The notes beneath the pieces were generated by a model. The model made no database searches, was not told the DNA's origin, and worked only from the letters and a program-made list of their open reading frames with translations. This document shows, one piece after another, positions 47,401 to 64,000 of a stretch of DNA of 64,000 nucleotides. The position numbers and the translations under genes are program-made. This stretch comes from Oceanospirillum beijerinckii DSM 7166. GTDB lineage: Bacteria > Pseudomonadota > Gammaproteobacteria > Pseudomonadales > Halomonadaceae. The stretch spans positions 1-64,000 of the forward strand of contig NZ_AULT01000009.1 in assembly GCF_000422425.1 (NCBI RefSeq), written 5' to 3'. Position 1 is the first letter of the stretch. Each line of letters begins with the position of its first letter.

Positions 47401-48027
<627 letters not shown>

Positions 48028-48209
48028 TCAGATCCTGATCCTGAAATAAGCGGTTAATTGGCTCCAATTTTATCGACAATTATAGCCTGAGGCGAATTTT
48101 GCCCAGGATTTAGCGTATAAAAGCACCGATGAACGCTGTGATAGCGCACTTAATCGCAGAATTGGGTAGAGTAAGCGCTTTAAATCGCCCGCATGCACAG
48201 GAGTGTCTC

Positions 48210-49094
48210 ATGCTTCAGTCTCAACCTCCCGCTTTATTAGCCGCCTTCTGGATGTTGGGAGCGCTGGTTTCCTTCGCCACCATGGCCGTGGCCGGGCGAG
48301 AGCTATCGGCGGAATACACCACCTTTCAGATCCTGTTTTTCCGCAGTGTCATCGGTGTCTTGATTATTGGTGCTCTGGTCAGTCGCAGCGGTTTTGCCCA
48401 GCTGAAAACCCAGCGCCTGAAATCCCATCTGGTACGTAACCTGGCCCACTTTGGCGGTCAATATGGTTGGTTTTACGGTTTGGCTTTTATCTCTCTGGCG
48501 GAAGTGATCGCCATCGAATTTACCACCCCGGTTTGGACCGCCTTGTTTGCCTTCTTTCTGTTAGGAGAACGATTGACTAAGGCCCGCATTACCGCGCTGG
48601 TGCTGGGCATCTTTGGCTTACTGCTGATTCTACGTCCCGGTGCTGGCGTATTAGAACCGGCGGCCTTAGCGGTACTGGCGGGAGCTGTAGGTTACGCCCT
48701 GACCTATATCCAAACCAAATCCCTGACCAGCACAGAAACACCCCTGTGTATTTTGTTCTATATGACCCTGATGCAGATGCCGTTAGGTATGGTGCCTGCA
48801 TTAATGGATTGGAAAAGCCCCAGCCTGGAGATGATGCCGATGATCATTCTGGTGGGTACCACCGCGCTCAGCGCTCATTACTGTATGACCCGCGCCTTTA
48901 AACTGGCGGATGCCACCGTGGTCGTTCCTATGGATTTCCTGCGTTTACCGCTGATTATGGTGGTGGGTTATCTGTTCTATCAAGAAAGTGTGGATTGGTT
49001 TGTTCTGGCCGGAGCCCTACTCATGTTGAGCGGTAATCTGGTCAATATCCGCGCCGAGCAGAACAAGCTAAAAGCCATACAGAAAGGTGAATAG
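48210..49094 (+). CDS. EamA/DMT-family transporter
   Basis: Drug/metabolite superfamily membrane protein with about ten hydrophobic helices in two EamA repeats (WMLGALVSFATMAVAGREL at the first; LAGAVGYALTYIQTKSLT at the second). The frame is open from 48129, but ATG 48210 has AGGAGTG at good spacing, so 294 residues are expected, the normal EamA size. The substrate cannot be predicted. No regulatory partner adjoins it. Confidence 0.88.
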   Translation: MLQSQPPALLAAFWMLGALVSFATMAVAGRELSAEYTTFQILFFRSVIGVLIIGALVSRSGFAQLKTQRLKSHLVRNLAHFGGQYGWFYGLAFISLAEVIAIEFTTPVWTALFAFFLLGERLTKARITALVLGIFGLLLILRPGAGVLEPAALAVLAGAVGYALTYIQTKSLTSTETPLCILFYMTLMQMPLGMVPALMDWKSPSLEMMPMIILVGTTALSAHYCMTRAFKLADATVVVPMDFLRLPLIMVVGYLFYQESVDWFVLAGALLMLSGNLVNIRAEQNKLKAIQKGE

Positions 49095-49675: not shown

Positions 49676-51145
49676 ATGTCCCTTGATTATCAAACCCTGG
49701 AATATCTGCGTCAGCATAATCCCGCCTGGCGTTTATTAACCAGCCCTCACGCCCCCTTAATGATCAGCTTTTTCCAGAAGGTGTTTATTGCCAAAAACGC
49801 CAGGATCTTGCCGCAGTCCGATCTGGTAGAAACCCTGGAAGATGAGCTGTTTCACCTCAGGGATCTGCTTGGTGATGATAAACTCCCCAAAAGTGCCTTA
49901 GAGTACCTCAACGACTGGTCGGCCACAGAGAAAGGTTGGCTGCGCAAGTTCTATCGTCAAGGTACGGATGAGCCGCAATTTGACCTCACGCCTGCGACCG
50001 AAAAAGCCATTGCCTGGTTGGAAACCCTGAGTCAAAAAAGCTTTGTCGGTACGGAATCCCGCTTATTGATGCTGTTTGATCTGTTACGCCAGCTGAGTGA
50101 GGGTAGCGATGAAGATCCAGAAGTGCGCTTGCAGGAACTGAAAAAGCGCCGTGATGCCATTGATGCCGAGATTGCTCAGGTGTCGATGGGCAATGTGACT
50201 CTGCTGGATGATACGGCGATTAAGGATCGTTTTATGCAGTTTAATCAACAGGCGCGGGAACTGCTGTTTGATTTTCGTGAGGTGGAGCAAAACTTTCGTC
50301 AGCTGGACCGCAGGGTGCGTGAGCGTATTGCCACCTGGGAGGGCAATAAAGGTCAGCTATTAGTGGAAATTATGGGCGAGCGGGATGCTATTGCGGATTC
50401 TGATCAGGGGGCGAGTTTTCGTGCGTTTTGGGACTTTCTGATGTCGCCACAACGGCAGGAGGAGTTTGGTGAGCATCTGGCCAAGGTTTTGGAGTTGCCT
50501 GCTATTGATGAACTCAGGCCCGATAAGCGTATCCGCAGAATCCATTACGATTGGCTGGAAGCGGGGGAGTATACCCAGCGCACCGTCGCACAGCTGTCGC
50601 AACAGTTACGCCGCTTTCTCGATGATCAGGCCTGGCTGGAGAACCGGCGTATCATGGATATTCTGCACGGTATCGAAGGCAAAACCCTGAAACTGCGGGA
50701 GTCTCTGTTCAGCAGTGCCGGACAGGATTTTATGTCGCTGGATGATACCTCGGCCAGTATTGAGTTGCCGATGGAAAGGCCACTGTATCAACCGCCTGTT
50801 AAGCCTGTGATCGACAATATTAAGCTGGATGACGGTGATGAAAGCCTGGACTCCAGAGCGCTGTTTGCACAGACCATTGTGGATAAAGCCGCTATCGCAC
50901 AACATATCCGCCAATCCCTGCAGCAGGAATCCCAGGTTTCTTTGCAGGCCCTGTGCTTGTCCCGGCCACTCAGTCAGGGGCTGGCGGAGCTATTGGCCTA
51001 TTTAGAACTGGGCGAAGAGGGGCAATCCAGTGAGCGTTTTACTATCCTGATCGATGAAGAGATCGAAGATAGCATCACCTGGCAGCTGGACGGCGAACAG
51101 CGTCAGGTGCGCATGCCCAGAGTGCTTTATCTGCGCGGACGCTGA
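49676..51145 (+). CDS. jetA: Wadjet anti-plasmid system protein JetA (DUF3375)
   Basis: Kleisin-like (MksF-type) subunit of the type I Wadjet SMC complex that recognises and cleaves small circular plasmids. The 489 residues start SLDYQTLEYLRQHNPAWRLL and contain NARILPQSDLVETLEDELFH and RFLDDQAWLENRRIMDILHG, the characteristic DUF3375 sequence. No Shine-Dalgarno sequence is clear. It is followed by jetB after 135 bases, a wider gap than in many Wadjet operons. The call rests on family recognition plus the jetB, jetC and jetD neighbours. Confidence 0.9.
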   Translation: MSLDYQTLEYLRQHNPAWRLLTSPHAPLMISFFQKVFIAKNARILPQSDLVETLEDELFHLRDLLGDDKLPKSALEYLNDWSATEKGWLRKFYRQGTDEPQFDLTPATEKAIAWLETLSQKSFVGTESRLLMLFDLLRQLSEGSDEDPEVRLQELKKRRDAIDAEIAQVSMGNVTLLDDTAIKDRFMQFNQQARELLFDFREVEQNFRQLDRRVRERIATWEGNKGQLLVEIMGERDAIADSDQGASFRAFWDFLMSPQRQEEFGEHLAKVLELPAIDELRPDKRIRRIHYDWLEAGEYTQRTVAQLSQQLRRFLDDQAWLENRRIMDILHGIEGKTLKLRESLFSSAGQDFMSLDDTSASIELPMERPLYQPPVKPVIDNIKLDDGDESLDSRALFAQTIVDKAAIAQHIRQSLQQESQVSLQALCLSRPLSQGLAELLAYLELGEEGQSSERFTILIDEEIEDSITWQLDGEQRQVRMPRVLYLRGR

Positions 51146-51280
51146 TTGGCTGATAACCATTTGATAGCAAACCTTTTTAGTGCTAAACCGGTTCGACGAG
51201 CCCTGGGCTTGTTCAATCACCGACAGCCTGGAAACACTGAGTAGCACAATACGTTTTGTCTGGTATATGACACAGCATTT

Positions 51281-51955
51281 ATGGATACCGATAGTCCTAT
51301 GAATACCGATTCTTCAGCTATATCCCCCTCTTCACAGCCGGTGGCTGATACTCAAGCGGAGTTGAGTGCGCTCTTGGTTCCCCTGTTAAAAGGCATTATC
51401 TATCAGGATGCAGCCCCGCAACGTTGGGCTGATCTGCTGAAACTGCAAAACCGGGTACGGGATTATGTTGCGGTACTGGGGTTGGAGCTGGTACTGGATG
51501 AGGCGGAAGGGTATGCCTTTTTGCACAGCCGCAGGGAAGAGGCGGATGACACAGAGATGGACGCCAGTGCCAGTCAGGAGGTTCCGAGGCTGATTACCCG
51601 GCGTCAGCTCTCTTTCCCTGTCAGCCTGTTACTGGCTCTGTTAAGGAAAAAACTGGCGGAGCTTGACGCCAGCGGTGGTGAAACCCGTTTAATGCTCAGC
51701 CGGGATGAGATTGTGGATCTGATGCGCTTATTTATGCCCGACAGCAGCAACGAAGCCAAGTTGGTCGATCAAGTGGATCGCCATATCAATAAAGTGGTGG
51801 AGCTGGGCTTTTTGCGCAAACTGAAAACCAGCACCGGCAAACAAATGGATTATGAAGTGCGCCGCATTATTAAAGCCTTTGTCGATGCCCAGTGGTTATC
51901 TGAACTGGACCAGAAGTTAGAGCAGTATCGTCAGCAATTACAGGAGAAAAAATAG
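51281..51955 (+). CDS. jetB: Wadjet anti-plasmid system protein JetB (DUF4194)
   Basis: Winged-helix KITE subunit (MksE-type) that holds JetA to the ATPase. The 224 residues carry [31 protein letters not shown] and [21 protein letters not shown], matching DUF4194. The start is uncertain: ATG 51281 and ATG 51299 lie in a near-perfect 18-base tandem duplication (encoding MDTDSP then MNTDSS), neither with a strong ribosome binding site. The stop overlaps the GTG start of the next gene by one base. Confidence 0.88.
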
Positions 51956-52848
51956 TGTTTAGTAATCCTAAGATTGAGGCATTAGCTCAGTTAGGCGATG
52001 AGTTTATCGTTGCATTTAATATACAGCCCTGGCCTGATTATCTGGAACGCTTCCAGTTTGATCAATCTGACCTACCAGCCTTAACTAGCGTCTTTCTGCA
52101 GAGGCTGCAGGAAGATAGTGTGACATATGATTTTGATGACGACGATCCGACGATTTGGTTGCCTAACCATATCTGGCGGGTACTGGGCCAGTTAAAATCC
52201 CCAAAAGCCATTGCCCCCTTGATTCAGAGCCTGCCTCTGCTTACTGAGAACGATGATGCCTATGACGAAATACAGGAAGTATTCTGCTTGATAGGCACGG
52301 AAGCGATTGCGCCATTAGCCGACTACTTACAAAGCCCCGTTGATTTAGAGGATGAATCTTGTCATGTTTTGGCGGCGCAGGCCTTAAGGGCTCTTGCAGA
52401 AAAATATCCTGATACCAGGAATCGTATTCTACTGATTTTTAAACAATATATGGGGTCACCCTGCAATGAAGCCTATATGCTGAATGGCAATATTATTGCC
52501 TTCTTATTAGACCTGAAAGCAGTTGAATTAATTGATGATATTCGACAATTTTATCAACGGGGATGTGTTGACTGGAATATCTGCGGTGATTTGGAAGGTG
52601 TTGAAATAGACTTGGGACTTAGATCCAAGCGCTCAACACCTAAGCCACGTTATAACCAGTTTATAGCTGGTTTTGAAGATTCTGATCAGGATGATGCGAC
52701 GTTAGATAAGTTGGATATGCTGATGCAATCCATCGCAGAACCACCTGAACCAGAGGTGCCTTTTGTCAGGGAGCTGACTAAGGTTGGACGTAATGATCCC
52801 TGTCCTTGTGGTAGCGGTAAAAAATACAAGAAGTGTTGCGGTAAGTAA
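51955..52848 (+). CDS. HEAT-like repeat protein with C-terminal SEC-C zinc motif, inserted in the Wadjet operon
   Basis: 297 residues from GTG 51955, one base overlapping jetB and preceded by AGGAG. Residues about 70-200 look like helical HEAT or armadillo repeats ([46 protein letters not shown]). The end [19 protein letters not shown] is a SEC-C motif with C283, C285, C294 and C295 as zinc ligands. Similar HEAT plus SEC-C proteins are annotated near DUF1186. Base composition appears somewhat more AT-rich than jetB and jetC. It is not part of the known JetABCD set. It may be a regulator, adaptor or cargo gene; the function is unknown. Confidence 0.8.
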
Positions 52849-52877
52849 CCCATAAAGTAATTAAGAGAGTATATCTG

Positions 52878-55800
52878 GTGTCAGCACAACAGGATCTGGT
52901 CGAAAATAACGCCTTTGATTTTACCAATGGCAACAGCCTGAGCGGTTTTCGTTTGAAGCGTCTGGAAGTGCTGAACTGGGGCACCTTCAGTGATCAGGTC
53001 TGGTCGTTAAATCTGGATGGCCAAAACGGTCTGTTAACCGGTGATATCGGCTCGGGTAAGTCTACACTGGTGGATGCGGTCACGACTCTGCTGGTGCCTG
53101 CCAATAAAGTGGCTTATAACAAGGCGGCAGGTGCTGAGCAGAAAGAACGCTCACTGCGCTCCTATGTGTTGGGGTATTACAAATCTGAACGTAACGATAC
53201 CAGTGGTAAATCCAAGCCGGTGGCGTTGCGTGATCAAAACAGCTATTCGGTGATTCTGGGCGTCTTCTATAACGAAGGTTACGATCAAACCGTTACCCTG
53301 GCCCAGGTGTTCTGGATGAAAGATCTACAGGGGCAGCCGGATCGCTTTTTTGTTGGCGCAGAAAAAACGCTCAGCATTAAAGAGGATTTTGCTCAGTTTG
53401 GCAGTGATATCGGTAATCTGCGTAAACGACTGAGAAAGTCCGGTTGTGAGGTGATGGAGCATTTCCCCCAATACGGTGCTTGGTTTCGCCGCCGTTTTGG
53501 CATTGAAAATGATCAGGCGATGGATCTGTTCCACCAGACCGTATCCATGAAGTCCGTGGGCAATCTGACGGAGTTTGTCCGGGGACATATGCTGGAGCCT
53601 TTCCAGGTTCAACCCCGTATACAGGCGTTGATTGCTCATTTTGATGATCTGAACCGCGCCCATGAATCGGTCTTAAAGGCCCGCCAACAGATCGAATACC
53701 TGACGCCGTTAATTGCAGATTGTGATCAGCATCAGTTGAATCATCAGCAGGTAGTGGAGTTGCGCCAGTGTCGGGAGGCGCTGGCCAGTTATTTCTCCGA
53801 ACAGAAACTGGCGCTGCTGGATGAACGTCTGGGCAGGCTGCAACAGGAACTTATCCGTCAGCAGAACCGTGTGCAACGGTTGAGTGAAGAGAGTGAGCAG
53901 CAAAGCTTCCAGCAACAGGAGCTAAAACAGCAGATCGCTGATAATGGCGGTGACCGCATCGAACGCCTGCGCCATGAGATCCAACAGTTGCAGGTCGAGC
54001 GTGAACGGCGCTTCGATAAAGCGGAACGTTATCAGAAGCTGTTAACGCCTCTGGATATGGTGGCGGTGGATAACCCTGATGATTTTCTTCAGCAGCAACA
54101 AGCGGTGCAACAGCTACAACAAGCGCTGGAAGATCAACAGGCGGAGCAGAGTGATCGACTCAGGGAAAGTGAGTTTGATTTCCTGCGCCGTAAAGAGGAG
54201 CACCAGGCGTTAGAGCAAACCCTGTCAGAGCTGAAATCCCGGCAGAGTAATATTGAGCAGCCCCAGATCAGAATCCGCCAGCAACTGTGTCAGGCCCTGG
54301 AGTTAGACGAAACTGAGCTGCCGTTTATCGGAGAGCTGCTACAGGTGCGCGAAGAGGATAAAGCCTGGGAAGGGGCGATTCAGCGGCTGATGCGTAACTT
54401 TGGTCTGTCGTTGCTGGTACCGGATCAGTATTACGCTCAGGTGGCTCAATGGGTGGATCAAACCCAGCTGAAAGGGCGTTTGGTCTATTACCGGGTACGG
54501 GAGCTGCGTCAGCAGGAGATGTCTAACTTACACCCGGATTCTCTGGTGCATAAGCTGGCCATTAAGCCCGACTCGGAGTTCTATGCCTGGCTGGAGCAAG
54601 AGCTGGCCCGCCGTTTTGATATCGCCTGCTGTGCCGATCAGGAGCAGTTCCGCCGGGAAAAACGCGCCATGACCCGGCAAGGGCAGCTGAAATCCCCCGG
54701 TGGGCGTCACGAAAAAGATGACCGCTTTGCTCTTAATGATCGCAGCCGCTTTGTTTTAGGCTGGAGCAACAAAGACAAAATCGATGCTCTCGCCAGTCAG
54801 GTGCGTCAGCTGGAAAGTGCCATGGCAGAACTGGCTCTGGCTATTAGCGCCCTGAAAAAGCAGCAGACAACCCTAAACCAAACCCTGAATGCCATCAGCA
54901 GGTTGGAAGAGTATCGCGACTTTCAGGAGCTGAACTGGCAACCTCTGGCTCAGGAAGTGAGTAAGCTGCAAGATGAGTTACAGCAGCTGGAATCCGCTTC
55001 CGATCTGCTGCAAACCTTAACCGATCGACTGAAACAGTTAGCCCAGGAGCAGAAGGAAACTGCGGACAAGCTGGACAGTGCTAAATCCGAGCAGGCTAAA
55101 ACGGAACAGAAGATAGAAGACAGCCAATGGCTGGTGCAGGATATCCAAAGTCAGCTAACCGATGACACGTTACAACTGAGTCAGCCACTGTATCCCCGTT
55201 TGGCGGAATTGCAGCAACAGGCGCTGCCGGAACTGAAAGTCAGTGTCGAAAGCTGTGATAAGCGCCAGCAGGAGATGCGGCGTTGGTTGCAGGAGCGGAT
55301 TGACGAAAAAGATCGGAAAAGCAGCCGCCTGCAGGAGCGTATCGTGCGCAATATGACCGACTATAACAACCGCTATCCTCTGGATACCCAGGAAGTGGAT
55401 GCAGCGGTTGAAGCGGCGGACGATTACCGTCAGATGCTGGATGCTCTGCAAGCGGATGATCTGCCACGCTTTGAGGCCCGTTTTAAAGCGTTGCTGAATG
55501 AAAATACCATCCGTGAGGTGGCTAACTTCCAGTCGCAACTGCACCGGGAACGGGAAACCATCAAGGAACGTATCGCTCAGATTAACGAGTCCCTGATTCA
55601 GATCGATTACAACCCCGGCCGGTATATCAAGCTGGAGGCGCAACCGAGCCAGGATGCGGATATTCGTGACTTCCAGACTGAGCTAAAAAGTTGTTTAAGT
55701 GGGGTCTACGATAGCGATCAGGACGAACAGTACTCAGAAGCTAAATTCCTGCAGGTCAAACAGATTATTGAGCGTTTCCGGGGCCGGGAAGGTTTAACCG

Positions 55801-56273
55801 AACAGGACAAACGCTGGACCAATAAAGTCACCGACGTGCGCAGTTGGTTTACCTTTGCCGCCTCGGAACGTTGGAGTGAGGATCATAGCGAACATGAACA
55901 TTACTCCGACTCCGGCGGTAAGTCCGGTGGTCAAAAAGAGAAGCTCGCCTACACCATTCTGGCGGCGAGTCTGGCGTATCAGTTTGGTCTGGAATGGGGT
56001 GAGGTGCGTTCGCGCTCGTTCCGTTTTGTGGTGATTGATGAAGCCTTTGGCCGTGGTTCTGATGAATCCGCCCGTTATGGCTTAAAACTGTTTGAACAGC
56101 TTAATCTGCAGCTATTGATCGTTACACCGTTGCAGAAGATCCATATTATCGAACCCCATGTGTCCAGCGTGGGCTTTGTCCATAACGAAGCGGGGCGCGC
56201 GTCTCGGGTACGCAACTTAACCATAGAAGCCTATCAGCAGGAAAAAGCTGATTTTGCTGACTCAAATATCTAG
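52878..56273 (+). CDS. jetC: Wadjet anti-plasmid system SMC-like ATPase JetC
   Basis: Motor ATPase of the Wadjet complex, predicted to extrude DNA loops. The 1131 residues have an N-terminal Walker [10 protein letters not shown] (residues 55-63), a very long central coiled coil rich in glutamine and charged residues, a hinge-like zone around residues 480-600, a C-terminal ABC signature [13 protein letters not shown] (from about 1012) and Walker B VVIDEAF (D1054, E1055). GTG 52878 follows AAGAGAG. All catalytic motifs are intact. It starts 29 bases after the SEC-C gene and jetD follows after 22 bases. Confidence 0.92.
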
Positions 56274-56295
56274 ACACGTATCATTAAGATAAGTC

Positions 56296-57540
56296 ATGGG
56301 CAAGAAAACATCACAGGCCTCCCGCTGGGGCGATAAACAAAGCCTACTGATTCAGGTACAGAAGCTTTGGGATAAAGGGTGTTTATTACAGGAAACACTC
56401 GCAAGCAGTGAACTGTTTCCCAAACGGCTCATCTTCAAAACCCCAAGCAGTCAGGCATTGGTGGAGGAGTTTGATCTGGTGCGGGATTGGCTGGCTCAGA
56501 TCAAACAACTGACCGGCTTTCGGGTGGAATATAAAACTATTCAACACCGGGTGATGGGGCAGCATAACCTGCCCTGCGAGGTGTGGCTGGATGATCTCGA
56601 CACGGCGATTAAGCTGTTAGGCGAGCAGAAAAACCAAGCACGCTTTATCCGTCAGTATCGACAGACTCAAGCACAGTTGCCTGAGCTGGAGCCCTGGCTC
56701 TATCAGCATGCTATTAAAGCACTCTCTTACGCTGATGTGTGGCCTCAGCTACTGGATTTTATCCTATGGCGACAGCAGCACCCGGATTCGGCGATCTACC
56801 TGCGTCAGGTCAGCTTACCCGGCATCGACACCAAGCTTATCGAACAGCATAAAGGCATACTGACCACACTGTTGGACCTGGTGTTGCCCGAAACTCAGGT
56901 GAATACAGCGCTCTCCTCCAGTAAGCGTTTTGCCGAACGTTACGGCTTTCAGAGCAAACCTGAGATGATCCGTTTTCGACTGTTGGATCAGCACAGCTCG
57001 ATCCTTCCGGGTATTAACGGCGATATCACTTTAACCGCTGCTGACTTTAATGCCCTGCAACATCAGCCCGGCTTTTTCCAACAACTGCAGCATATCTTTA
57101 TCACGGAAAATGAGATCAATTTTCTGACTTTCCCCGCCTATCCTAACGCCTTAGTGATTTTTGGTGCAGGTTATGGCTTTAGTGCCTTTGATCAGGTGAA
57201 CTGGTTAGCTCAGATGCAGATTTTTTACTGGGGGGATATCGATGTTGATGGTTTTGCTATTTTAAATCAGCTGCGTCACAAACTGCCCCAGGTGCACAGT
57301 CTGATGATGGATGAAGGCACGCTGCTAGCTCATCAGACTTTTTGGGGAACGGATGAAAAGGCTCGACATAAAAGCCAGCCCCAACTATTGGATCGTCTGA
57401 CAGACCGTGAACAGAGTCTGTATCAGGCTTTATTGGATCAACGCTACCAGGAAGCACTCCGCTTGGAGCAGGAACGCATTCAGTTTGATTATGTTAATCA
57501 TGTCTTACAACGGCTTGCCGTACCCGAGAGTCCCCTATGA
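56296..57540 (+). CDS. jetD: Wadjet anti-plasmid system nuclease subunit JetD (DUF3322/DUF2220)
   Basis: Topoisomerase-VI/Toprim-like subunit that cuts DNA in the Wadjet complex. Of 414 residues, the N-terminal DUF3322 part spans about 1-190 (VSLPGIDTKLIEQHKG). The DUF2220 Toprim-like part has E271 and E273 in FITENEINFL and D314, D316 and D318 in YWGDIDVDGFAIL, the expected metal-binding acidic residues. The stop TGA overlaps the next gene's ATG by four bases, so the downstream gene is translationally coupled to jetD. Confidence 0.92.
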   Translation: MGKKTSQASRWGDKQSLLIQVQKLWDKGCLLQETLASSELFPKRLIFKTPSSQALVEEFDLVRDWLAQIKQLTGFRVEYKTIQHRVMGQHNLPCEVWLDDLDTAIKLLGEQKNQARFIRQYRQTQAQLPELEPWLYQHAIKALSYADVWPQLLDFILWRQQHPDSAIYLRQVSLPGIDTKLIEQHKGILTTLLDLVLPETQVNTALSSSKRFAERYGFQSKPEMIRFRLLDQHSSILPGINGDITLTAADFNALQHQPGFFQQLQHIFITENEINFLTFPAYPNALVIFGAGYGFSAFDQVNWLAQMQIFYWGDIDVDGFAILNQLRHKLPQVHSLMMDEGTLLAHQTFWGTDEKARHKSQPQLLDRLTDREQSLYQALLDQRYQEALRLEQERIQFDYVNHVLQRLAVPESPL

Positions 57541-58688
57541 GTGAATATCAGTATTATCGTTTTGTTAGCCTGGATAACCCTCTGTCATCTGCCCAGCAGA
57601 ATAAGCTAAGGGAGATATCCAGCCGGGCCAGTATCAGCGCAAACGCTTTTCAGGTTTATTACAACTACAGTGACTTAAAAGCCGACCCTGATAAGTTAAT
57701 GAAGGATTATTTTGATATCGGCTTCTATTACGCCAATTGGGGTGACGTTACTATCTGGCTGAAGTTACCGCCATCCACTCTGCCCAAAGAGTTTCTGGTT
57801 ATTGATGATGGTTATGAGGCCGTTGTTTGGAATAGCAAAAAATACCAACTGCTGCGTCTGAGTCTGGAAGGTGATGATAATTACCGTGATGACGAGGATG
57901 CAGAGGCTTTCTTTATCTATCTGCATACCCTTAGAGAAGAGTTGATCAATGGTGACTACAGATTACTCTATCTGTGCTGGCTGAATCAGCTTGATCAAGA
58001 GAGCCAGCCATCCGAGTTACCTCGAATCCGTTTCGATTTTAATCAATTAACTGCAGGGCAGCAGGCTTTTGCCGATCTGTTTTCACTATCAGAGGTGTCA
58101 GTTAACGCGTTAATCAAGCTGCTCAATGAAACAGGCTCCCATCAGCCTTCTGGCTCTGGGGCATTATCGGCTCAGCAACAACTTGAGCAGTTATCCACAG
58201 AAGATAAAGATCGCCTGTTATACGCTTTGTTTGAACAGGGGCAGTTATCCAGGCATCAGGCTTTGGCTGTGCTCAATCAGACTCAGGCTCAAAAGGAGTG
58301 GCGCTACTGGTTAAGTGCCGATGATCTTGCCCCTTATTGTCAGCAGATCAAGGATGAAATGCGACAACAATATTTGGCCGCAGAAGCGAAGCGTAAGGAA
58401 GAGGAACGCATTCGCCGGGAGTGGCATCTCACGGCTGTTTATGAGGCACGGGATAGGTATTGGCAAGCTATAGTGGCTGGGGCAGAAAAGCGTAATGCCA
58501 GCGGTTATAGTGAGGCTGAAAGAATATTGCAGGATCTTTATGACGCTTATCAGCTGAAAGGTGTTTTGGCTGACTTTGTACCGCCCTTCCAGGATTTCAT
58601 ATCGGCATATAGTAGACGTAGTGCCTTGATGAAGCGATTGGAGCCCCTGAAACAATCCGTGGCAAAAGCTTTGTCTATAGATGAGTGA
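57537..58688 (+). CDS. Uncharacterised protein coupled to jetD (MSEYQYY family)
   Basis: A 383-residue soluble protein starting MSEYQYYRFVSLDNPLSS, a start I associate with an uncharacterised family found next to SWIM zinc-finger and DUF6880 proteins. The N-terminal 140 residues look globular (FDIGFYYANWGDVTIWLKLP). A middle region and a strongly charged helix (about 275-300, AAEAKRKEEERIRREWH) follow, then a helical end (AERILQDLYDAYQLKGVLADF). The catalytic function is unknown. ATG 57537 overlaps the jetD stop (ATGA), which ties it to the Wadjet transcript; the next gene starts 30 bases after its stop. Confidence 0.8.
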   Translation: MSEYQYYRFVSLDNPLSSAQQNKLREISSRASISANAFQVYYNYSDLKADPDKLMKDYFDIGFYYANWGDVTIWLKLPPSTLPKEFLVIDDGYEAVVWNSKKYQLLRLSLEGDDNYRDDEDAEAFFIYLHTLREELINGDYRLLYLCWLNQLDQESQPSELPRIRFDFNQLTAGQQAFADLFSLSEVSVNALIKLLNETGSHQPSGSGALSAQQQLEQLSTEDKDRLLYALFEQGQLSRHQALAVLNQTQAQKEWRYWLSADDLAPYCQQIKDEMRQQYLAAEAKRKEEERIRREWHLTAVYEARDRYWQAIVAGAEKRNASGYSEAERILQDLYDAYQLKGVLADFVPPFQDFISAYSRRSALMKRLEPLKQSVAKALSIDE

Positions 58689-58718
58689 TGGTTTTAAGTG
58701 TTGAAAGGAGCACTGATT

Positions 58719-60086
58719 GTGGATGAAAAATTAATTCAGTGCCTGAATCAGGTATCCGCAGAGCAGCTGGCCGATATCATCAAGACGATTTACGGCATGG
58801 ACGATAACGTCGACCATAAAATTGAAGCTGCATTATTTCCGGCAGGTTCAGGATATATTGTTGAACAGTTGGAGGCGCGTATTGCGTCAATAGAACAAGA
58901 CGACGATTTCATTAGCTACCGCGACGTTTCTACTTACAGTATGCAACTGGATTATCTCGTTGACGATATTGCCAGTCTGGTAGATACAAACCCTGAAAAG
59001 GCTTTTCATTTGATCAACCGCTTTATCAATACTCATGAGGATACGTTCAATAGATCAGATGATTCTGGTGAGATGGGTGACAGCTATTCAAGAGCGGTTG
59101 ATATCTGGCTATTGGCAGCCCAAGCTTGGCAAAGTAACGGAAGTTGCTCATTGGTTTGGGCTGAGGAATTAAAACAGCGTCATTACAGTGATGATTATGG
59201 GGTATGGTATGGCCGGATTGCGGATAGCAAAGCTCTGTTGGGTGATGTTGTACTGAGAACTTTGGCGAAAGAGTTTGAAGATGATTACTGTCAGCTGTCT
59301 AAACAAGAATCTAAGAGCAACCAGTATAGAGCCAGCTGCGCCAGGTACGGAATAGAGCAGGTTGCCAGGGCATTAGGGGATATTGAGTTATACGAGCATG
59401 CATTTCTCATTGAACCGTCAGCACTTAATGATGCCCAGAAAGAAAAAATAGTGAGGTTCTGTTTACAACAACAAGATGGGCAAGCGGCGTTGAAATGGCT
59501 GACAGGCTCTTGGGATGATGGGTTACGGAGCTACACCAGAAAGGAATTGTTAGAAGAAGCCTACCAGCTGACAGGGCAGACCGAAGAGTTAATCCGGATA
59601 CGTTCGGAAGCGTATCGGCAAGATCCCTGCTACAGAAATCTGCAGGCCTTACTTGAAGTATTGCCTGAGCAGGATAGAACACCTGTTTTGCAGGGGGCTG
59701 CCGAACAGGCCTTAAAAATAAAGTATTTCAGCTCAAGAATAGACACTCTGATAGATCTTGGAGAGATAGAGCAAGCTGTAGAACAGCTACTTCAGTATGG
59801 TTTTCAAGAAGGGGTAATCGCCTACGGCAATTTACTGCGCTGGACTGAAGTGTTTGCTAATGCTGAATATTACTTGGCCGAAGTTGCTTGTTACCGTTTG
59901 CTTTTGTTGGATATTTTGAATGAAGGTCGGAGTAAGGCTTATGGGTATGCTGCAGATTACTATCAAAACTTAGCGCGCTTGGATACAAGGGTTGATGATT
60001 ACCAGCCTCTGGCCAGTTGGCAGGAATTCCAGGCTGAGCTCAAAAACAGGCATGGGCGTAAATACTCTTTTTGGAATCGTCTCTAA
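58719..60086 (+). CDS. DUF6880-like helical repeat protein
   Basis: A 455-residue soluble protein rich in helical hairpins, probably TPR or solenoid-like (YSRAVDIWLLAAQAWQ; LGDIELYEHAFLIEPSALND). The C-terminus YGYAADYYQNLARLDTRVDD followed by a basic HGRKYSFWNRL resembles the ending of DUF6880 proteins, to my memory. The open frame extends to GTG 58698, but AAAGGAG at 58704-58710 favours GTG 58719. With the preceding gene it forms a pair I know from other genomes outside Wadjet. No catalytic motif is evident. The name is tentative. Confidence 0.68.
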   Translation: MDEKLIQCLNQVSAEQLADIIKTIYGMDDNVDHKIEAALFPAGSGYIVEQLEARIASIEQDDDFISYRDVSTYSMQLDYLVDDIASLVDTNPEKAFHLINRFINTHEDTFNRSDDSGEMGDSYSRAVDIWLLAAQAWQSNGSCSLVWAEELKQRHYSDDYGVWYGRIADSKALLGDVVLRTLAKEFEDDYCQLSKQESKSNQYRASCARYGIEQVARALGDIELYEHAFLIEPSALNDAQKEKIVRFCLQQQDGQAALKWLTGSWDDGLRSYTRKELLEEAYQLTGQTEELIRIRSEAYRQDPCYRNLQALLEVLPEQDRTPVLQGAAEQALKIKYFSSRIDTLIDLGEIEQAVEQLLQYGFQEGVIAYGNLLRWTEVFANAEYYLAEVACYRLLLLDILNEGRSKAYGYAADYYQNLARLDTRVDDYQPLASWQEFQAELKNRHGRKYSFWNRL

Positions 60087-60157
60087 AAAATACTGAGTCG
60101 AAGCCCCCCTTGCCTCGATGGTTAGGGAAAATATGAACGCTGTCGTATGGGTAAGTT

Positions 60158-61081
60158 ATGAAGTCTCAGAAAGAAGTGTTAGATGCGATTCAGCAAGCAG
60201 TGGATATGAATCCTAATCTGACACTGGATGAAATCCAAGCGCTGGCACAGCAGAAAATCCAGCAGCATAACCACAGCCCTAATGCTGATTTATGCGGTCT
60301 TTCTCCGGCTCAAATGGCCAATTGGCTGTATGACCCTTTTGATGAATTGGCTGGTGTTAAGATCTGTACGCCGGATGACTTATCGGCAAGTCCTGTGATG
60401 CGTTATCTAACGTTGATTTTAGATGAGGCGATGCAACAGGGCGGTTCGTTTAAAGCGACCACTAAAGGCAACTTACCCACAAGCTTGGTAAAACAAGCCT
60501 GTAATCTATTGCCTGAGTTTGCTGTCTCTCAATATGAGACACATATCAGTATCAGTGAGTTTGCTGGTAGTAATGAAGATAAATGTAATGCATTACATTA
60601 CACGCGGGTTTTGGCAGAAATGTCGGGTATTATCTACCGCAGAAGCGGGCGTTACCATGTGAAGAAAACGGCACAGAAACAGTACCAACATGATGGTATT
60701 AATGCTTTTTTCCTGCCTATGCTGAAAACCGTCATTACAGAATACAATTGGGGATATCTGGATGGTTGGGAGGAGGATATCGATTTACGGACTTTCTGGG
60801 TCTTTATGCTTTGGCGACTGCAGCATCATCACTCGATTGATCAATTGATTGAAGAGATGGCGACTGCATTTCCTAAGCTGTTGCATCAGTTTAAACCCAG
60901 AGAATACAGCTCACCTATTCAGTCTCTCAGTTCCTTGATTGAGGTTCGTTTTCTGAGCCGCTTTTTGCAGTATTGGGGTTTCATTACACTGGCCCCAGGA
61001 CGATTTCGGGCTGCTGACGAGCCAGAGAGAAAGGCAGATATCCAGCCACTGCTGGCCCAAACCTTCCGGTTTGAAATCTAG
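60158..61081 (+). CDS. Uncharacterised 307-residue protein
   Basis: A soluble protein with GLSPAQMANWLYDPFDELAG near residues 46-65 and a tryptophan-rich centre (YNWGYLDGWEEDIDLRTFW). The end LQYWGFITLAPGRF hints at a winged-helix-like or alpha-helical fold. I recall similar starts (LSPAQM..LLY.PFD) in hypothetical proteins found with SEC-C proteins, but cannot name the family. It lies 71 bases after the DUF6880-like gene on the same strand, so it may still belong to the same transcript; the TAAGT leader is a weak ribosome binding site. No signal peptide or membrane segment. Confidence 0.7.
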   Translation: MKSQKEVLDAIQQAVDMNPNLTLDEIQALAQQKIQQHNHSPNADLCGLSPAQMANWLYDPFDELAGVKICTPDDLSASPVMRYLTLILDEAMQQGGSFKATTKGNLPTSLVKQACNLLPEFAVSQYETHISISEFAGSNEDKCNALHYTRVLAEMSGIIYRRSGRYHVKKTAQKQYQHDGINAFFLPMLKTVITEYNWGYLDGWEEDIDLRTFWVFMLWRLQHHHSIDQLIEEMATAFPKLLHQFKPREYSSPIQSLSSLIEVRFLSRFLQYWGFITLAPGRFRAADEPERKADIQPLLAQTFRFEI

Positions 61082-61539
61082 TGGATACAGGATATGCCCG
61101 TATTTTGTCTTAGCCCGGTCTATAGTGTAGTAAAGAGGCACTGTGAAATAGTCTGCTGTCAAACGATATGCTTGTAGAATCCGTATGTAGGCAGAAGTAA
61201 GGCCTGAAATACACCTTAGGATTCTGGCCTTGCCGGAATAATCACATTATCATTGTGGCCGGTGGGGTTTCCTGTGGGTTGTGAATCTTGCCGGATCCTC
61301 TGGCGGGTATTATGCTGCCAGCCTTCCGTTATCATCACACCAGAAATAATCATATCCCGGATATAGAATCACCGAGTTTAGCCCAGATTCTGAACATGAA
61401 TCTCAAAATGAAATCATTGTCAGCCAAAGTGCAATGATCGCAAGTAATCCAGAATTTCAGAGAGATTAACAGGCGCTATTGAGGGCGAACTGGAATTGCT
61501 TAACAGTCTTGAAAAATACCAGCTAGAAGGGTGCTGAAA
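61082..61539 (+). other. Intergenic region with a probable decayed small ORF
   Basis: 458 bases without an intact gene. From 61350 one frame reads through SQSAMIASNPEFQRD and stops at 61467-61469. A second frame (61448-61537) continues LTGAIEGELELLNSLEKYQL and ends at TGA 61535-61537. Together they look like the C-terminal part of a small protein broken by a frameshift. Its end overlaps the alternative GTG 61531 of the next gene. The rest, 61082-61349, shows no recognisable feature. Confidence 0.3.
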
Positions 61540-62916
61540 GTGGACGATATTGTAAAGCAGATCGCAAAGGCTAATCTCTCACCGGATCTGCTCAAAAAAG
61601 TGGGTATGTCCGGTTTACTGGAAGCGTTTGCTCAGGAAGATAACCCCGAGTCGCTGCAATCTGACAAGCCAACGACCTCTGGCTGGTGGGGGGCAGATGA
61701 GCTTGACGGTCCTCTGGAGACTGCACAGCTACAGTCTCTTTTCACTAAGAAGCTTGACCAGTTAATGGTCATTGCAATCGCTCAATCACAGCTATTAAGC
61801 CAACAGCAGCATTCATTACAGCAGCAGCGAACGATTATCCGCAAACAAGTCAGTCAGCTTGAACAGGCCAATGCCTCTGTGGGCCAGCAGCAAAAGGCAC
61901 TGCATAGCCAGCAGGAAGGGCTACAGCAACTGACTGATCAGCATCAGGCATTAAAAACCTTCACTCAGGACAGTGCTAAGAAGCTGATTGAGACTATCGG
62001 CGAGGTGAAGTCGACACGCCAAGCGATGCAGGATGTGATTTTAGAGCATAATCAGGTGACCGCCGATTTACAGGCCTTTCAGGAAGAGGGGCTGGATCTG
62101 CTGGAAGATTCTTTGAGTCAACGAATTGATCTCATTGAAGAATCTATGAAATCCTCAATAGAGGATCAGGATCAGATTATTTCTGATCTCCAGTCATATC
62201 AGGAAAGTGAGCTGCGGGACTTTCGGGATGCGCTGGACCTGATTAAAAGTGAACTCAGTGATGAGTTGAATGAGACGAAGGATTTTACTGAATCCTGGGT
62301 CGAAAAACATTCACAGGATATTCAAGCGCTTGAAGACAAGTTGGAAGCGCTCCAAGGGGATATTCAGCAGGAGATCTCACAGCAGAGTGAGAGGCTGCAA
62401 AGCATTAATCAGACCTTGGCAGATGAGCTGGAAAGCCGTGCAGAACAGTTCAAAGCGGATTATGCAGAGCATGAAAAAAGTGCGCTGGAACGGGAAGAGG
62501 CTTTAAGCGATAAGATTAATACGCTTCAGCAAGAGAGTCAGGCGTCCACTGAAACCCACAAGCAGAATCTGCAACAGTTAAGCGAGCAACTGGAATCCAA
62601 AGCAAGTCAGTTGCGGGATCAGAGTACCAATCAAGGCAAACAGCTCTCAAAACTCGAGCAGGGCTTAAAAAGCTCGGTCTCCAAAATAGGCGATAAACTC
62701 AACGCTCATGCCGATTTTTCAAAGCAGCTGAAAGCGGCCCATAGTAAGGAGATCAAATCGCTGCATGGGCTGTCTGTTCAGCATGATCAGCGCTTGTCTG
62801 ATCTGGAAGAAACCTTCGAGCGTCGCATGAAGCTGATGACCTTACTGGCCTATGGCGGTATGGGCGTTGCGGCAATAGCGATAGCGGGCTTGGTCTGGGT
62901 GCTATTAGGTGTGTGA
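61540..62916 (+). CDS. Long coiled-coil protein with C-terminal membrane anchor
   Basis: 458 residues from GTG 61540, chosen because AGAAGG at 61525-61530 lies nine bases upstream (GTG 61531 would have no spacing). The N-terminus (about 1-70) is partly globular with GWWGADELDG. Residues about 75-425 are almost wholly charged and glutamine-rich coiled coil (QQQHSLQQQRTIIRKQV; KSELSDELNETKDF). One C-terminal hydrophobic helix (AYGGMGVAAIAIAGLVWVLL) ends three residues before the stop. It is a tail-anchored inner-membrane candidate with a cytoplasmic coiled coil. Composition resembles phage tape-measure or partition-like scaffolds, but no family is recognised. Its neighbours suggest a mobile or defence context. 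Confidence 0.7.
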   Translation: MDDIVKQIAKANLSPDLLKKVGMSGLLEAFAQEDNPESLQSDKPTTSGWWGADELDGPLETAQLQSLFTKKLDQLMVIAIAQSQLLSQQQHSLQQQRTIIRKQVSQLEQANASVGQQQKALHSQQEGLQQLTDQHQALKTFTQDSAKKLIETIGEVKSTRQAMQDVILEHNQVTADLQAFQEEGLDLLEDSLSQRIDLIEESMKSSIEDQDQIISDLQSYQESELRDFRDALDLIKSELSDELNETKDFTESWVEKHSQDIQALEDKLEALQGDIQQEISQQSERLQSINQTLADELESRAEQFKADYAEHEKSALEREEALSDKINTLQQESQASTETHKQNLQQLSEQLESKASQLRDQSTNQGKQLSKLEQGLKSSVSKIGDKLNAHADFSKQLKAAHSKEIKSLHGLSVQHDQRLSDLEETFERRMKLMTLLAYGGMGVAAIAIAGLVWVLLGV

Positions 62917-63408: not shown

Positions 63409-63462
63409 ACTCGCATTGCACACTTTTATGCGCATAAAAGTGTTGCGGCGCTCTATGCGAGT
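63409..63462. repeat. Nested palindromes at the 3' end of the HipA-like gene
   Basis: A perfect 22-base palindrome CACTTTTATGCGCATAAAAG plus TG (63421-63442) lies inside an outer 8-base inverted repeat ACTCGCAT (63409-63416) / ATGCGAGT (63455-63462). A GAGTACTC palindrome is next to it (63400-63407). The outer right arm begins at the last base of the HipA-like gene's stop codon (63453-63455). It could be a terminator-like hairpin, an operator cluster or a recombination site. Confidence 0.55.
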
Positions 63463-64000
63463 ATAAAGCAGTCCCTCAATAGCTCTCTTTCTTCTTTGCT
63501 AATGCCCGCTTGTTGGGCAAGGCTTTCCCATTGTGAGACGGCTTTTAACAATCTTTGTTGGATGGCATTGGCTTTACTTTCAGTAACGTGAAAATACTCT
63601 GCAACGTCAAATGCTAAGTCAATCGAAAGCGCGTTGCTTACGTCATCAATATTAAGGTGTAGACCAGTGGCGTATAACATAGGATTGATATCGTAGGCAG
63701 GAGATAGCCGCCAACCAGTCGATTCCAGAATGAATCCATGATTTCTAAGATGATCATCACAATTAGATACCATGATATTAAACAGTATTCTGGTCCAAAG
63801 TTGTTCAAGATCTGCCTGAGTATTCGAGCCGTGTTGGATCAGAAACTCAGCCAGCTCTAAGTAACTTGCCCCTTCATCCTGGCCATCAAAGTACTCTAGT
63901 TGAGTCATCGCAGAGCTGAAGTGTAGCCGCTTCCCTGTTTCGGTACGGTCGAACCTTTTTGTTAAAAAAATATGATGTCTGCCAATGGCTTCAACTTTTG
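63453..64000 (-). CDS. HipA-like serine/threonine kinase, C-terminal part (cut by the window edge)
   Basis: The frame is open from 64000 to the stop at 63453; the 5' end lies outside. The translation begins KVEAIGRHHIFLTKRFDR, then LHFSSAMTQLEYFDGQDEG, NIMVSNCDDHLRNHGFILES and GWRLSPAYDINP, the HipA_C kinase domain with the catalytic aspartate of the NCDDHLRN motif and the metal-binding D of AYDINP. HipA toxins phosphorylate an aminoacyl-tRNA synthetase in E. coli; the target here is unknown. HipB and the N-terminal domain are not visible. There may be a short two-gene HipT/HipS arrangement. Confidence 0.85.
   Translation of the reverse strand, partial: KVEAIGRHHIFLTKRFDRTETGKRLHFSSAMTQLEYFDGQDEGASYLELAEFLIQHGSNTQADLEQLWTRILFNIMVSNCDDHLRNHGFILESTGWRLSPAYDINPMLYATGLHLNIDDVSNALSIDLAFDVAEYFHVTESKANAIQQRLLKAVSQWESLAQQAGISKEERELLRDCFILA

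Follow-up and report, generated by a model that had tools for sequence, protein, structure and literature searches.

Type I Wadjet systems (JetABCD, also MksBEFG or EptABCD) are four-gene machines in which, according to PMC10586767, JetABC would extrude loops of DNA and small circular molecules would be cut by JetD. We examined a 64,000-nucleotide stretch of contig NZ_AULT01000009.1 from Oceanospirillum beijerinckii DSM 7166 (hereafter, the window), which encodes a complete type I Wadjet with intact jetABCD at positions 49676-57540. The window shares all four subunits, their order, and their catalytic motifs with described type I systems but differs by a gene inserted between jetB and jetC (here termed X), a 135-nt jetA-jetB spacer, and cargo behind jetD (Y, Z, and V). 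We consider it likely that this is an ordinary type I Wadjet in a crowded defense island, with X, Y, Z, and V being independently traveling cargo and not subunits of the complex. Extra genes in Wadjet operons were not mentioned in the open-license literature searched, including the available portions of PMC10586767 and PMC12287153.

The original prediction that jetA, jetB, jetC, and jetD are all present with intact motifs was confirmed by Pfam, PADLOC, solved protein chains, and motif positions. The best PADLOC models of the four proteins were JetA1, JetB1, JetC1, and JetD1, and JetC also matched the Pfam families SbcC_Walker_B (3e-24) and AAA_29 (1e-23). JetC aligned along its length with the solved JetC chains 8dk2 and 8as8 and contains Walker A at residue 55, the signature SGGKSGGQ at 1012, and Walker B (VVIDEAF) at 1051. 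JetD is similar to MksG (8b7f, 2e-19) and to JetD chains 8q72 and 7til, with GDIDVDGF at 313 (acidic residues 314, 316, and 318) and ENEINF at 271; going by the alignment offset alone, E271 corresponds to the position altered in JetD(E248A), chain 8q72. The order of jetA to jetD is kept on one strand, interrupted by X between jetB and jetC. JetA and JetB match ordinary models over nearly their full length, so nothing points to an added docking region. The mechanism is predicted to be that of related systems, as nothing about the window copy suggests otherwise, and plasmid restriction would be the expected outcome. PMC10586767 reports an IFDR motif near the JetB N-terminus as a JetD contact; the motif is not defining for type I. 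A loose pattern for this motif was absent from the window JetB and from all 73 JetB open reading frames (ORFs) in the 80 JetC-retrieved loci introduced below, and the motif appears to be missing from JetB of the whole clade. The same genome carries a second DUF3375 locus (L032, G000:C52:9974-29973) with jetABC-like genes (JetC1 by PADLOC), no jetD seen, and an EptA-like transferase as the next gene about 480 nt on; this locus looks like an MksBEF-type complex without a nuclease.

Whether the additional genes belong to the system was judged from 111 comparison loci. Thirty-one were retrieved by DUF3375, the family matched by JetA, from a set of 293 genomes of the same order; one of these is the second DUF3375 locus of the window's genome, and the remaining 30 come from other genomes. 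A further 80 were retrieved by JetC from one genome per species. The latter are the best 80 of 529 relatives, so nearer Wadjets may be missed; the two sets may share species, and neighbors were called from mechanical ORFs. In the 97 loci with both genes called, jetB-jetC ORF distances lay between -196 and +230 nt; one junction alone exceeded 82 nt, and it holds only a 78-amino-acid ORF. No junction contained a gene of X's size, which argues for cargo, and X is an insertion private to the window locus among the sampled loci. The idea of an enlarged Wadjet that regularly includes X was rejected on the evidence of these junctions.

X itself had been described as a HEAT-like/SEC-C gene sitting between jetB and jetC with a one-base jetB overlap. 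Its placement, overlap, and SEC-C end (2e-10, above cut-off) were borne out, while the HEAT_PBS match is sub-threshold (19.5 bits versus a cut-off of 20.9). The GTG start of X shares the G of the jetB TAG stop, and AGGAG lies just upstream, inside jetB. PADLOC matches X by its SEC-C end alone. A search with the whole of X was dominated by SEC-C tails (57 of 58 genomes) and was repeated without the tail. Relatives were then found in 7 of 194 genomes; each species being represented by one genome, variation of X among strains is not visible in this count. Absence from homologous loci had been named beforehand as the sign of an incidental passenger, and this is what the junctions display; likewise, none of the other six X genomes has a jet gene adjoining X within the sequence read, the copy in G070 lying on a 7-kb contig. 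One X relative, with 46% identity in the alignment, is a DUF1186+UPF0149+SEC-C protein of G034, where its gene adjoins a Z relative in convergent orientation about 5 kb from mnmE (trmE). The same convergent pair occurs in G100, and both genomes lack DUF3375. Among viral contigs, nearly all of the best 80 of 311 X matches fell on the SEC-C end, and nothing on DUF1186 in a defense context was found in the open-license literature.

Behind jetD, two large unknown proteins had been reported. The ATGA overlap and the 30-base gap both stand, although there are three genes, and Z is a DUF6880 protein. The start of Z was assigned to the GTG at 58719 because homologs fit this position and AAGGAG lies upstream, giving the 30-nt Y-Z gap; the Z-V gap is 71 nt. 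The segment preceding V (60087-60157) contains in-frame stops, and V lacks the N-terminal SEC-C of its closest relatives while the upstream X ends in SEC-C. Neither Y nor V has a Pfam family over cut-off, and PADLOC holds no model for Y, Z, or V. The predicted model of Y (mean predicted local distance difference test [pLDDT] score of 64; no Protein Data Bank match at E of 0.001 or better) is too weak for fold-based claims. A common C-terminal module of Y and Z was considered and is unsupported (profile comparison probability of 2).

The closest counterpart to the Y and V pair is a four-gene module on Acinetobacter plasmids, encoding HipB, HipA, a SEC-C protein, and an MSEYQYY protein (L063:6338-10119). 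V and Y occur together in 9 of 9 Acinetobacter plasmid records having either, and hipB-hipA-V-Y also occurs in G110, a genome without DUF3375. The window V is 65% identical to the SEC-C protein of these modules and the window Y about 43-44% identical to the MSEYQYY protein, with hipA situated 2.4 kb downstream of V. In the window, however, the order is reversed and Z separates the two (Y-Z-V), the N-terminal SEC-C is missing from V, and hipA lies on the other strand with only remote similarity to the G110 copy (1e-13). The arrangement of V directly followed by Y behind hipBA is absent from the window; the genes are present but rearranged. In a tree of 24 rows, the window Y falls in the hipBA-linked Y clade (support 100/100), apart from other Wadjet-linked Y proteins. 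The existence of the X-Z and V-Y pairs in genomes without DUF3375 and the grouping of the window Y with hipBA-linked Y both support the cargo interpretation.

Composition points the same way. G+C content at third codon positions (GC3) is 0.413, 0.469, 0.443, and 0.458 for X, Y, Z, and V, respectively, which is below the values for jetA (0.586), jetB (0.573), jetC (0.585), and jetD (0.540). The overall G+C content of X is 0.437, compared with a minimum of 0.484 among 197 X-length segments of jet coding sequence. Tight packing had been taken to suggest one transcript. The co-directional packing is real, and a single transcript for the cluster is plausible, but the packing is uneven given the spacer between jetA and jetB. 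A promoter scan returned 8 sites versus 19 expected by chance and is uninformative on transcripts for that reason.

From the gene content, composition, neighborhoods, and Y tree, we infer a history in which a type I Wadjet would have landed in a gmk-yicC defense hotspot, where the jet operon became interleaved with cargo genes of different origin. X would have entered cleanly between jetB and jetC, with Y, Z, and V taking up positions behind jetD. The extra genes may be on the jet transcript yet act separately, and Y and V are most likely part of a hipBA-linked mobile module.

Table 1. Genes of the Wadjet cluster and its surroundings. Positions are those of the window unless the contig is named.
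Feature	Positions	Strand	Length (aa)	Matches and remarks
jetA (kleisin-like, type I)	49676-51145	+	489	DUF3375 PF11855 2.1e-151; PADLOC JetA1 7e-210
jetB (KITE-like, DUF4194/MksE)	51281-51955	+	224	PF13835 1.1e-45; PADLOC JetB1 3e-90
X (helical DUF1186-like protein, C-terminal SEC-C zinc motif)	51955-52848	+	297	
jetC (SMC-like ATPase)	52878-56273	+	1131	PADLOC JetC1 E=0; solved JetC 4e-66
jetD (Toprim nuclease)	56296-57540	+	414	JetD_C 6e-50; DUF3322 4e-45
Y (MSEYQYY-family protein)	57537-58688	+	383	ATGA overlap with jetD
Z (DUF6880 protein)	58719-60086	+		PF21810 2.7e-36; ORF as listed from 58698
V (SEC-C-module relative without N-terminal SEC-C)	60158-61081	+	307	
gmk	47401-48024	-		Left border of gmk-yicC hotspot
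DMT transporter gene	48129-49094			Follows gmk; likewise in G294
Coiled-coil protein	61531-62916	+	461	C-terminal hydrophobic segment (by eye)
hipA	63453-64000, on to contig 64616	-		HipA_C 6e-48
hipB-like HTH gene	contig 64704-65018			
yicC	83952-84815, same contig, beyond window			Right border of gmk-yicC hotspot

Several observations weigh against the cargo interpretation, the strongest being the recurrence of Y beside Wadjet. Y is the only one of the four genes that is an immediate same-strand Wadjet neighbor elsewhere, in 3 of the 111 loci: 72 nt before jetA of a distant Wadjet (L036), 8 nt before jetA (L109), and 105 nt after jetD (L131). In G399, a distance of 3.3 kb separates Y from a jetD of opposite orientation. 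Given 13 copies per 293 genomes and two possible positions among 4000 genes, the chance of at least 3 in 111 loci is 2e-9; allowing for island clustering, the probability becomes 0.002 at 100-fold and 0.13 at 500-fold. Random placement thus leaves the recurrence unexplained, and strong island clustering may explain it. DUF3375 is present in 8 of the 11 Y genomes, the window's included, versus 31 of 293 overall (Fisher p of 8.5e-7). For Z, the distance to a jet gene is 6 kb or less in three of the eight genomes with DUF6880 over cut-off (the window's, G270, and G203), with a SWIM-DUF6880 protein 1 kb from jetA and divergent in G203. G225 (L048, outside the 194-genome V sample) has two V-like ORFs behind jetD, in opposite orientation. 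Four of the seven X genomes have DUF3375 (the window's, G007, G070, and G185), and the insertion of X left both neighbors intact with a good ribosome site, which fits a tolerated or a useful gene.

The Y results could be read as Y being an occasional accessory of Wadjet. In this reading, a small gene with a helper or regulatory role would have entered jet operons on several occasions, on the upstream or the downstream side, and would modulate JetABCD. The ATGA overlap in the window would agree with this, as would the observation that, unrecognized JetB ORFs set aside, only type III restriction enzymes are equally frequent among immediate same-strand neighbors (three loci within 300 nt: L091, L105, and L164). 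That family is also the counterargument: a fourth, divergent copy 16 nt before jetA in L040 brings it to 4 of 111 loci, so that an independent system recurs as often as Y or more. Most Y genes lie elsewhere, with 2 of the 11 order genomes, the window's included, having Y beside Wadjet, and Y follows hipBA, a SWIM protein, and others too. Over-cut-off PglZ (BREX-type) is likewise enriched, in 6 of 11 Y genomes versus 29 of 293 (p of 1.8e-4). Since PglZ is enriched as well as DUF3375, Y genomes are richer in defense genes generally, and this control weakens the genome-level association as proof of a shared system. The Y tree, in which L109 and L131 pair, L036 stands alone, and the G399 protein groups with those of G389 and G491, places the window Y outside the clades of other Wadjet-adjacent Y proteins; as these fall in separate groups, the adjacency probably arose more than once. 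No plasmid record carries both Y and JetC (25 Y-bearing versus 15 JetC-bearing records), a weak test because Wadjet attacks circular plasmids. On balance, an accessory role for Y is unlikely. For X, the analogous proposal is a HAWK-like HEAT subunit or sensor bound by the kleisin JetA, in the way that kleisins of other SMC complexes bind HEAT proteins; HAWK proteins are real SMC partners (PMC10586767). X is predicted to be all-helical with its sub-threshold HEAT match, in a low-confidence model (mean pLDDT of 50) too weak for fold-based claims, and it sits inside the operon with a one-base overlap. Its absence from the other junctions, the location of its relatives away from jet genes in the sequence read, its composition unlike that of the jet genes, and the near end-to-end match of JetA and JetB to ordinary models make this role highly improbable. 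That Y, as a recurrent and independently recruited JetABCD modulator, and here X, as a HEAT-like subunit of a normally KITE-only kleisin complex, are true Wadjet partners is quite improbable.

Another possibility is that X, Y, Z, and V constitute an uncharacterized modular defense or toxin-antitoxin set scattered around Wadjet. The two recurrent pairs, X-Z and V-Y, would fit, the latter often being at the yicC hotspot or on plasmids, as would the scarcity of PADLOC models noted above. In G270, moreover, Z comes after a DrmD-like helicase and a Schlafen/AlbA_2 protein, with the same run in G023, which lacks DUF3375 (the G270 proteins were tested; those of G023 were named by eye). All four genes were seen together only in the window, however, X and Z are on opposite strands in G034 and G100, and the X homologs of G007, G163, and G185 lie in what looks by eye like plain chromosome. 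We regard such a set as doubtful. The cargo interpretation accommodates the proximity of Y and Z to Wadjet, which exceeds random expectation but is matched by independent defense genes, and V, which was found in 15 of 194 genomes, among which only the window's has DUF3375 (183 genomes matched through SEC-C, and only those with a match beyond SEC-C were counted). Together with the empty junctions for X, these results leave the originally suggested expanded complex with a regulatory or sensing arm mostly not borne out. The proposed check of neighbor conservation around JetA/JetC homologs came out mixed, with Y recurring and X not.

The wider distribution of Y and Z was also cataloged. Y matched 16 of the 293 order genomes; the 11 whose match included the N-terminal part were counted, and 5 C-terminal-only matches were dropped. 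The gene is interrupted by a stop in G139 and G185. Among 349 genomes of the phylum, 12 matched Y (5 long and 7 partial), with the window's genome and G102 in both sets, and the family ranges from proteobacteria to cyanobacteria and actinobacteria. Away from Wadjet, Y adjoins hipBA and V (G110 and the Acinetobacter plasmids), hipBA (G225), a SWIM protein (G389), a DUF6933-like neighbor below cut-off (G266 and G085), or nothing recognizable. The C-terminal part of Y weakly matches that of a neighboring SWIM protein (E of 0.056). Y copies of one family (f8; L214, L215, L216, L217, and L219) often follow a 260-amino-acid DUF6933-like gene, again below cut-off, and several are truncated or interrupted. 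Viral contigs yielded one Y relative, no pattern match for V, and none for Z; phage records yielded no Y. DUF6880 matched 13 of 293 genomes, 8 of them over cut-off, and no papers on this family were found in the open-license literature. The three-gene run of DrmD-like helicase, Schlafen/AlbA_2, and DUF6880 genes was located at L223:3666-9184 and L224:9439-14945, in genomes of different families, with the G270 Wadjet nearby.

Islands that insert at yicC, some of them carrying defense genes, have been described (PMC8409611 and PMC12016545), and the window shares with these islands the yicC-adjacent interval and defense cargo. The contig order is gmk, about 36 kb, yicC, and rph. Beyond V, a coiled-coil gene is set apart from the cluster by a 449-nt gap and ends in a 12-pair stem-loop; its product is weakly like the PADLOC candidate PDC-M40C and ZorA coiled coils. 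The right part of the island contains a DEAD/ResIII helicase, a HepT/nucleotidyltransferase pair, DarT with a macro-domain protein, type I restriction-modification, and Septu PtuAB, with some of the ORFs identified by eye. In other genomes of the order, the neighborhood of yicC contains hipBA-V (G193), V with hipBA (G153), V at a distance of 1.5 kb (G071), or hipBA-Y (G225); in G185, Y is found 4 kb from gmk. DUF3375 is absent from G193, G153, and G071 and is present in G225 and G185 away from the gmk-yicC site, so V, Y, and hipBA recur at this hotspot without Wadjet at the site, which further argues for cargo. Within the genus, little is present in the gmk-yicC interval of G296, and that of G295 carries SMC-like and hipA cargo; G293 has SMC-like cargo after gmk with yicC not reached, G294 has another neighborhood, and the contig ends in G297. 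In two genus genomes (L241:8133-14677 and L242:5457-12022), a DUF3584 SMC-like protein (1238-1254 amino acids) and three partner genes follow gmk, the L242 set lying between gmk and yicC; the large L241 protein has no PADLOC model at 1e-5. No exact word of at least 12 nt is common to the yicC end and the island as an att-like repeat, and no site-specific integrase was recognized among the ORFs, which were read by eye only. The window island was not assigned to the yicC integrative elements.

The locus suggests how defense islands mix: an operon of four subunit genes can admit an unrelated gene in its interior with no damage evident. Close spacing and an overlap of one base therefore say little about membership in a common complex. 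Y, which recurs by Wadjet, hipBA, and yicC and lacks a Pfam or PADLOC model, is a fair candidate for a defense-related gene in its own right. Were the extra genes parts of Wadjet after all, they would offer a handle on the regulation of plasmid restriction.

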